The notes under the pieces are model-generated. The model saw nothing but the letters and a program-made list of their open reading frames with translations. It had not been told where the DNA came from and did no database searches. The position numbers were made by a program, and so were the translations under genes. This document shows positions 60,967 to 63,057 of a stretch of 64,000 nucleotides of DNA, piece after piece. The first letter of the stretch is position 1. Each line of letters starts with the position of its first letter. Origin of the DNA: Sulfurimonas crateris (GTDB lineage Bacteria > Campylobacterota > Campylobacteria > Campylobacterales > Sulfurimonadaceae); assembly GCF_005217605.1 (NCBI RefSeq), contig NZ_SZPX01000001.1:124001-188000 (forward strand), read 5' to 3'.

Positions 60967-61074
60967 TTTTTGTACTCTTATGGTATAAATATTCTTAGTT
61001 TTATATTAGAGCATATATTTAAGTTCTGAAAAATTTATATATTTTATATATTCAAGTCTAAGGAAATTATACAA

Positions 61075-61692
61075 ATGAAATTTAATGATTTAGATTTAAA
61101 AAACTGGAAAGAGTGTGACATAAACACAGACTCTCTTTGGCTTATAAATGAGCGTGATAAAAGTGGAAAACATAAAAATATCTATCACGGAAACTTCATT
61201 CCTCAGATTCCAAATCAACTTATAAGACGTTATACAAAAGAAAATGAGGTTGTTTTAGAACCCTTTATGGGAAGCGGAACTACACTTTTTGAGTGTGAAA
61301 AACTTAGTCGTAAATATATAGGTTTTGATATAAACCCAGTGATGTTTGAATATGTAAACAATGCAATGAGTGATGAAACATATAAGCATAATTTTTATAT
61401 TAACCATTGTAATAGTTTAGATAATGAGCAAGTGGATGAGAATATCCAAAATGCAAATGAAAAACTTCAAACTAAAGGTGTCCAATTTGTACTTATGCAC
61501 CAACCTTATATGGATATAGTGAAGTTTACAGAAGATGAAAATGATATGTCAAAGATAGATAATATCAATGAGTTTGTAAAAAAGTTTAAAATCATTTGTG
61601 AAAATAGCTTAAAACATCTTGATAAAAATAGATATTTTGCTGTTGTTATTGGGGATGTTTATAAAAATGGGGGAAAATCTTATGACTTATGA
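61075..61692 (+). CDS. DNA N4/N6 methyltransferase, probably truncated
   Basis: 205 residues. Motif I is LEPFMGSGTT and the catalytic motif is LMHQPYMDIVKFT, where relatives have HPPY or DPPY: the first Pro is Gln. The protein ends at GDVYKNGGKSYDL, where I expect another ~50-60 residues after a GDxYxxG segment. The last bases overlap the endonuclease gene. The region is clearly richer in AT than its flanks, suggesting transfer. It pairs with the HNH endonuclease as a type II system. Activity is uncertain. Confidence 0.7.
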   Translation: MKFNDLDLKNWKECDINTDSLWLINERDKSGKHKNIYHGNFIPQIPNQLIRRYTKENEVVLEPFMGSGTTLFECEKLSRKYIGFDINPVMFEYVNNAMSDETYKHNFYINHCNSLDNEQVDENIQNANEKLQTKGVQFVLMHQPYMDIVKFTEDENDMSKIDNINEFVKKFKIICENSLKHLDKNRYFAVVIGDVYKNGGKSYDL

Positions 61693-62350
61693 AAAAGCAA
61701 TGGAAAAAGTCATGATTGAAAATGGTGGCTTTGCACCTTTAAAATTGATTTATGAAAACATAGAGAAGTACAGAAAAAATACTGGAAAAACACCTGATAG
61801 GACTATTCAAGAAAGAGCTCAAAGGTGTTTTACTCGAATAGCAAAAGGTATCTATTGCACAGAAGAATTTGCTATGCAACTAGAGCAAGATAATAAGGGT
61901 TACTTGGAAATAAGTTCTAAGAATAATGTTGTTTTTAAACCTATAAAAATAACTCAAGAAACTGAACGAATTGGTTCACAAAAAATTAGAATAGGACACA
62001 GTACTTTTAGAGACAAGTTAATAAATGATTTAAAACAGTGCCCAATTACACATATTGATGATACAAAATTATTAATTGCAAGTCATATAAAGCCTTGGGT
62101 ACTAAGTAACAATGAAGAACGATTAGATGTAAATAATGGTTTTTTATTATCTCCATTGTTTGACAAACTGTTTGATAAAAGTGTTGGACTGATTACATTT
62201 ACAGATAAAAAAGAAATTTTGTTATCAAAACGGCTTAAGAATAATATTAATAAGATAGGAGTTATTCACAGGCAAATTATTGAAGATTTGCCAGTTGTTG
62301 GTAGAGAAGAATTTTTAGAATATCATAGAAAATATATTTTTCAAGGATGA
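61682..62350 (+). CDS. HNH endonuclease, likely type II restriction enzyme
   Basis: 222 residues from ATG 61682 (GGGGGAAAA upstream; overlaps the methyltransferase by 11 bases). An N-terminal winged-helix-like part (MTYEKAMEKVMIENGGFAPLKL...) is followed by the HNH_2-type core CPITHIDDTKLLIASHIKPW and NNGFLLSPLFDKLFDKSVGLITF with conserved His and Asn. This core is typical of restriction endonucleases paired with DNA methyltransferases. The core looks intact. Confidence 0.8.
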   Translation: MTYEKAMEKVMIENGGFAPLKLIYENIEKYRKNTGKTPDRTIQERAQRCFTRIAKGIYCTEEFAMQLEQDNKGYLEISSKNNVVFKPIKITQETERIGSQKIRIGHSTFRDKLINDLKQCPITHIDDTKLLIASHIKPWVLSNNEERLDVNNGFLLSPLFDKLFDKSVGLITFTDKKEILLSKRLKNNINKIGVIHRQIIEDLPVVGREEFLEYHRKYIFQG

Positions 62351-62583
62351 ATGAAATGCAAGAATATTATTTTGAATATAGAGGTGGTGAAATTGTAGCC
62401 ACAGTTAAAGCCACCTCTTTAAGTGAAGCTTTAGACAAGTTTGATAAAAAGCAAGATGTGACATACGACATTGAAGTAAATATGTTATTGCCAGATATGT
62501 GGACATATGAATGCGATGAGTTAGCAATTGTGGCGAAAGAAGAATTCTATAGACAACAAGAAGATGATGATGAAGACATTTAA
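62347..62583 (+). CDS. Small acidic hypothetical protein in the restriction cassette
   Basis: 78 residues (or 75 from ATG 62356, which has better-spaced AAGGATGA). The ATG overlaps the endonuclease stop. Sequence EYYFEYRGGEIVATVKATSLSEALDKFD with a strongly acidic tail (QQEDDDEDI). No family recognised; translational coupling and codon style suggest it belongs to the cassette. Confidence 0.55.
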   Translation: MNEMQEYYFEYRGGEIVATVKATSLSEALDKFDKKQDVTYDIEVNMLLPDMWTYECDELAIVAKEEFYRQQEDDDEDI

Positions 62584-62788
62584 ATACTTACTAGAAGTCG
62601 AAATAGTTATTGATGAGGAAAATATCAACAAAAAGTACCCAAACTATAAATTCAATTATGATTCTATAGAAGAGTTTGCTAGTTCTTTAGTTCCTGAAGA
62701 AAGCTATGAAGGAGATACAGATACGTCTAAAGATGGTTTGGAACAATGGGGATATAGTATCACAAAAAAGCGAGCTAGGATAAAATAA
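62564..62788 (+). CDS. Small hypothetical protein in the restriction cassette
   Basis: 74 residues from the first of three consecutive in-frame ATGs (62564, 62567, 62570). Overlaps the preceding gene by 20 bases in another frame. Contains ENINKKYPNYKFNYDSIEEFASSLV and a basic tail (KKRARIK). No family recognised. Confidence 0.5.
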   Translation: MMMKTFKYLLEVEIVIDEENINKKYPNYKFNYDSIEEFASSLVPEESYEGDTDTSKDGLEQWGYSITKKRARIK

Positions 62789-62931
62789 TGAGGTTTAATT
62801 TATTTATAAAAATAAAAAATAATGACTTAAAAACCAAAGAGTATCAAAGGTTTAAAGCAGATAAGACAGAGAATAGAAACCATACGGCAAGTAGTACTTT
62901 TGAATATCTACATATCTTAGAGAAGTTATAA
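62788..62931 (+). CDS. Possible 47-residue protein
   Basis: ATG overlaps the preceding TAA (TAATG), indicating coupling. The product is basic, with TASSTFEYLHILEKL at its end. Too short to assign; it could be a remnant. Confidence 0.4.
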   Translation: MRFNLFIKIKNNDLKTKEYQRFKADKTENRNHTASSTFEYLHILEKL

Positions 62932-63057
62932 ATGACAGAAAATATTGAAAAAGCTACAAGCGGCGGTGATCTGCTCACTTGGAGCATTATGTTTGGATTG
63001 CTCATTGTTGTTGCAATAGGTTTGGCTATTTGGGATAAAAAGAGCAGTAAGGAGTAG
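62932..63057 (+). CDS. 41-residue single-pass membrane protein
   Basis: ATG follows the previous stop without a gap (TAAATG). The product has a polar N-terminus ([15 protein letters not shown]), one membrane helix ([19 protein letters not shown]) and a short DKKSSKE tail. It lies seven bases before tsaD and shares its direction. Function unknown; its composition fits the chromosome better than the cassette. Confidence 0.55.

Follow-up and report, generated by a model that had tools for sequence, protein, structure and literature searches.

Why does an apparently intact HNH nuclease gene in Sulfurimonas crateris overlap the end of a methylase gene that stops early? An earlier note on this DNA (the window, the whole 64,000-nucleotide stretch analyzed here) held that an active nuclease with a dead methylase would kill its host, so that the nuclease must be silent or modification-dependent, the methylase must work in its short form, or the locus must be another kind of defence. 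That dilemma was correctly stated, and our analysis favors its modification-dependent option but not its working-methylase option. With moderate confidence, we read the sequence as encoding a modification-dependent (type IV-like) nuclease that stands alone; its cassette has taken the place of a restriction gene, and the enzyme would be compatible with the host as the neighboring methylases are dead. The term "restriction cassette" used in the note is therefore misleading: the locus is a nuclease cassette inside the remains of an M1-R-M2 system (two methylases and a restriction gene), rather than a single restriction-modification (RM) pair.

Table 1. Features of the AT-rich island, in window coordinates
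Feature	Position	Strand	Evidence
AT-rich island	60967..62931	+	Between dxr (end 60966) and conserved 41-aa ORF/tsaD (62932/63065)
M1, 3'-truncated, probably dead N6/N4-type DNA methyltransferase fragment	61075..61692	+	205 aa; PF01555 E=2.4e-18
Motif I FMGSGTT of M1, SAM binding, intact	61264..61284	+	Sequence; conserved in relatives
Motif IV HQPY of M1	61498..61509	+	Sequence; HPPY in 22/22 other family members inspected
HARE-HTH-like + HNH nuclease, 222 aa from ATG	61682..62350	+	HNH_2 E=1e-9; VcaM4I 6yex profile E=6.8e-27
N-terminal winged-helix (HARE-HTH-like) domain, residues 1-64	61682..61873	+	Modelled winged helix; Foldseek to forkhead domains
HNH core, residues 120-166	62039..62179	+	Alignment to VcaM4I
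ORF1, 78 aa, partner	62347..62583	+	67% identical ORF after same nuclease in Ignavibacteriales genome
ORF2, 72-73 aa, partner	62567..62788	+	3' of nuclease in L088, L089, L097, 67-76% identical
M2 remnant, residues 295-333 of D12-class DNA adenine methyltransferase	62809..62925	+	tblastn 77% identity, E=3e-14

The upstream methylase, M1, keeps residues 1-199 of approximately 265, and these are 88% identical to its nearest intact relative (265 aa). Relatives came from 399 searched genomes belonging to the same order; the intact ones extend 249-267 aa from the matched start, and after GDVYKN all of them carry a conserved block (IPLGFY..., KNIEGNRGKLG..IWRYRAL..DYYIFKHEYIFVFKK) that is absent from the window M1, which has lost the C-terminal ~66 aa. 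A second lesion has changed HPPY to HQPY, a variant found in the window M1 alone among the 23 sequences compared (the other 22 being 17 intact and 5 truncated family members). The earlier note had described a shortened methylase with an intact motif I and a catalytic HQPY, and both motifs and the truncation were confirmed. Its suggestion that the methylase works in this form was rejected, since every intact relative is longer and every one has HPPY; M1 is probably a dead 5' fragment, judging from these two lesions. Nevertheless, dN/dS of the remnant against its nearest relatives (0.075-0.136) resembles that of intact genes, suggesting that the break is probably recent or that the fragment is kept for another purpose, for example as a lead-in for translation of the nuclease.

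At the far end of the island lie the last 39 residues of a second methylase, M2, which the earlier note missed and which are the sole M2-like match in the whole window genome. Intact loci in other genomes place M1 first, then at least one cargo gene, and finally M2, which is a D12-class adenine methylase with a length of ~333 aa. A frequent cargo between M1 and M2 is an IceA-family protein (PF05315, E=1.9e-115), while EVE/NucS_C-like proteins are also found there. To this family belongs the NlaIII-like IceA1, which in Helicobacter pylori adjoins the hpyIM methylase (PMC13340068), and the pairing of M2 with IceA leads us to infer that M2 may be a CATG enzyme. In the window, the HNH_2 protein occupies the place that intact loci give to a PF05315 gene, the cognate restriction gene. 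PF05315 had no match in the window's own genome, nor in control genomes, and a search of viral contigs for M2 was likewise without a match. The intact protective methylase(s) expected of a type II RM system were not found: M1 is truncated and carries HQPY, M2 is reduced to 39 aa, and neither has a substitute elsewhere in the genome.

As the earlier note had recognized, this DNA is much richer in AT than cdsA-dxr before it: G+C falls from 0.42-0.49 across cdsA-dxr to 0.28-0.31 from ~61000 to 62999 and has recovered by ~63000. Relocating both ORFs also reproduced the 11-base overlap of the methylase and nuclease frames exactly, at 61682-61692. In relatives from the genus, tsaD either begins 6-15 bp 3' of dxr or follows it in the order dxr-41aa-tsaD without an insert, while others have inserts there; M1/M2-type islands also occur at the dxr-tsaD position in G202, L088, and G433. 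The dxr-tsaD interval is thus a variable slot. A promoter scan gave a result at chance level. The 41-aa ORF between dxr and tsaD (62932-63057) has a predicted membrane stretch and is found at the same position, with 59-78% identity, in several genomes of the genus.

The nuclease appears well preserved in sequence and predicted structure. Its AlphaFold2 model rose from a pLDDT of 66 with a first alignment to 85 with a deeper one, and Foldseek matched it to VcaM4I at E=3.3e-9. Residues H135, N152, D161, and D165 align with H224, N241, D250, and D254 of VcaM4I, known as active-site residues and from mutants (PMC7897488), and all four are invariant in 48 homologues. Pairwise dN/dS of 0.12-0.27 indicates that the nuclease is under purifying selection. 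We also considered whether the enzyme might be catalytically dead for want of an HNH histidine (SPLFDKLFD), but VcaM4I too has D at that position. The N-terminal domain is less clear-cut: a PF05066 (HARE-HTH) profile search gave no match to the window nuclease itself, and the homologues in L091 (25.7 bits) and G361 (L090/L032; 25.3 bits) fell below the cut-off of 25.9, though spanning positions 1-70 of 71. The wing of the window protein has a 2-residue deletion relative to close homologues, and given this deletion, the protein could be losing function.

Two small ORFs 3' of the nuclease, likewise missed by the earlier note, complete the cassette. Their dN/dS values (0.28 for ORF1; 0.13-0.24 for ORF2) point to constraint, and neither family had a useful match in Pfam, NCBIfam, PADLOC, or PHROG. 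By hhalign, neither is similar to the small ORFs of G361 and L093.

Recurrence of this arrangement was followed in nuclease loci obtained from a genome contig scan together with order and genus searches. Full-length nuclease accompanies M1 in six loci from two phyla: the window, L088 (a S. crateris MAG), G361, G383, L093 (Pyrinomonadaceae), and L095 (Sulfurospirillum). All six have a 3'-truncated M1, with about five distinct break points (after residue 199 in the window, ~95 in L088, ~250 with an additional internal deletion in G361, 209 in G383, 235 in L093, and ~250 in L095), and M2 is 5'-truncated in five of these six as well as in a gammaproteobacterial locus (L097). M1 was intact in 20 of 27 loci without the nuclease versus none of six with it (Fisher p=0.0015), and M2 was 5'-truncated in 6/7 loci with the nuclease versus 1/20 without (Fisher p=0.00016), both values being rough since the loci share ancestry. 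No intact close copy of M1 was found in ten nuclease-carrying genomes, and an intact close M2 was found in G361 alone, where the frame is open, with an altered start, beside an intact nuclease. The nuclease itself is broken in two cases, by an insertion sequence in L095 and by a frameshift in G335, where it lies 3' of an IceA fragment. A deeper relative (L094, 43% identical) follows and abuts a CcrM-like methylase that ends at profile position 193 of 350. In Ignavibacteriales, Calditrichaeota, and Flavobacteriales, the nuclease stands alone. The nuclease has come to adjoin broken methylases many times. Chance misassembly is not favored as the origin of the truncation, as several other loci share the architecture with different junctions.

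What the nuclease might recognize is constrained by the other methylases of its host. A genome-wide search found no other intact PF01555 or D12 methylase in the window genome, and thus no active cognate methylase, as for stand-alone type IV enzymes. The genome does contain two intact 5mC methylases, which makes a broad 5mC reader unlikely, and a type I HsdM along with two large N6-type methylases, which make a general m6A reader unlikely. The nuclease must therefore be context-specific, and because the host has 5mC, HsdM, and large N6 enzymes but no intact PF01555/D12 enzyme, an amino-methyl mark in a specific sequence is the more plausible target. Since G361 keeps an open M2 frame beside an intact nuclease, the M2 mark is not the sole or universal target. 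Elsewhere in the same genome (G000:C1:220860-223099), tandem 5mC methylases are followed by a 345-aa ORF, probably as a separate RM system.

The combination of a VcaM4I-type HNH, a HARE-HTH-like domain, stand-alone homologues, and a broken methylase in every M1 locus with the nuclease suggests modification dependence, on the basis of homology and genome context. Such an enzyme offers the most economical account of the locus, because it needs no methylase, would be lethal beside an active one that makes the mark it reads, and is found beside dead ones. The anatomy itself is well established: the island represents the remains of a three-gene RM locus (M1, restriction gene, M2) in which a cassette encoding the winged-helix (HARE-HTH-like) and HNH nuclease with its two small partner proteins stands in place of the restriction gene, the last (3') quarter of M1, and almost the whole of M2. 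Under the favored scenario, the winged helix would recognize a modified sequence when DNA enters the cell, and the HNH domain would cut nearby, whereas host DNA would be spared, the resident methylases that would make such marks being dead. The M1 fragment would then serve only as a leader that is translated and whose stop overlaps the start of the nuclease, and translation of the two may be coupled. A bolder and distinctly tentative extension is that the nuclease is a mobile anti-restriction-system element, whose gene would enter M1-R-M2 (NlaIII/IceA-like) or CcrM-like methylase loci, capture the expression signals of the methylase, dismantle the methylases, and restrict their mark; if so, the same locus would switch from protecting methylated DNA to destroying it.

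Alternatively, the HNH protein may be an ordinary type II enzyme that was originally partnered with M1 and M2, the methylases having been lost after the nuclease fell inactive or silent and its ORF remaining open as the decay is recent. This reading is unlikely in our estimation, though it would account for the specific association of the nuclease with M1/M2-type loci, the near-intact dN/dS of the M1 remnant (implying recent truncation), and the broken nucleases of G335 and L095. It fits poorly with an intact active site and purifying selection across the family, with stand-alone copies in three phyla, and with the observation that in most loci the flanking methylases are broken and not the nuclease; moreover, no intact M1-HNH-M2 locus was found among those surveyed. 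If ORF1 and ORF2 instead restrained or triggered the nuclease as immunity or sensor proteins, base modification would be irrelevant, and the locus would be another defence altogether. We consider this improbable: the close homologues in L091, L092, G383, and G335 have neither ORF, and the small ORFs that accompany those in G361 and L093 are different ones, even though both ORFs travel with the nuclease across phyla under purifying selection. Very improbable indeed is a frame slip, through phase variation or sequencing error, at GGGGG (~61670), where removal of one base would bring the frames into register and yield a single MTase-HNH polypeptide from M1 residues 1-199 and the nuclease. The fused M1 would still lack its C-terminal 66 residues and carry HQPY, other loci have separate frames with different junctions, and a five-G run is short for a phase-variable tract.

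Several known systems lie close to this one. VcaM4I (EVE-HNH, 5mC/5hmC-dependent; PDB 6yex), its best PDB match by sequence and fold, shares the HNH, the preceding linker helix, and the active-site residues, but has an EVE reader at its N-terminus where the window nuclease has a HARE-HTH-like winged helix. HARE-HTH is a predicted reader of modified bases (PMC10853773; PMC11037411), including, as has been proposed, cytosine modifications (PMC11037411). Among the wH-HNH proteins (224-283 aa) are m6A-dependent (Gm6ATC) type IV enzymes, and 87% of wH fusion genes lack a neighboring methylase (PMC11037411); the window protein resembles this class in its modelled winged helix followed by HNH, its 222 aa, and the lack of an active methylase neighbor, whereas it is by Pfam probably of the HARE-HTH subtype and lies inside methylase wrecks. 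Methylases adjoining DpnI-like nucleases have been described as inactivated or frameshifted (PMC11037411, section 17), and the window locus is a variant of this reported pattern rather than categorically new: like the DpnI-like PD-(D/E)XK-wH nucleases and DpnI/DpnII cassettes, it would pair a modification-dependent nuclease with an inactivated amino-methylase, but the nuclease fold differs, and the truncation affects both methylases of a three-gene locus, recurrently and at different junctions. The iceA1/iceA2-hpyIM (NlaIII-type) locus of H. pylori likewise sets an IceA-family gene beside a D12-type methylase, in a position that also takes alternative cargo, yet H. pylori retains hpyIM, whereas the window has an HNH nuclease in place of IceA and an additional upstream M1. 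In PcaRCII and PcaRCI, a methylation-dependent HNH nuclease also conflicts with an RM methylase, but in that pair promoter silencing resolves it (PMC8989522), and in the window apparently methylase loss.

If the preferred reading is right, this locus family constitutes a natural experiment on the incompatibility of methylases and methyl-dependent nucleases, and an intact methylase from a relative is predicted to make the nuclease toxic, which is directly testable. The locus may also point to an uncharacterised HARE-HTH modification reader. For annotation, a "methylase" ORF should be checked to be whole before it and an intact nuclease next to it are called an RM pair.

Related loci show further variation within the M1..M2 frame. 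In many intact loci (L002, L256, L257, L259, L260, and others), a protein of 351-382 aa with weak EVE and NucS_C matches lies directly 3' of M1, with or without IceA, and could represent a restriction component that has gone unrecognised. In L258 (G207), the M1-IceA-M2 locus is whole except for a single in-frame stop at M1 codon 220, and M1 may be dispensable there. In L251 (G202) and L252 (G362), M1 is cut at residue ~171 and followed by a 5mC methylase, a BpuJI-like enzyme, and a second 5mC methylase, with M2 3' of this block intact in G202 and running off the contig in G362; this is another cargo swap in the same M1..M2 frame, at the dxr-tsaD site in G202.
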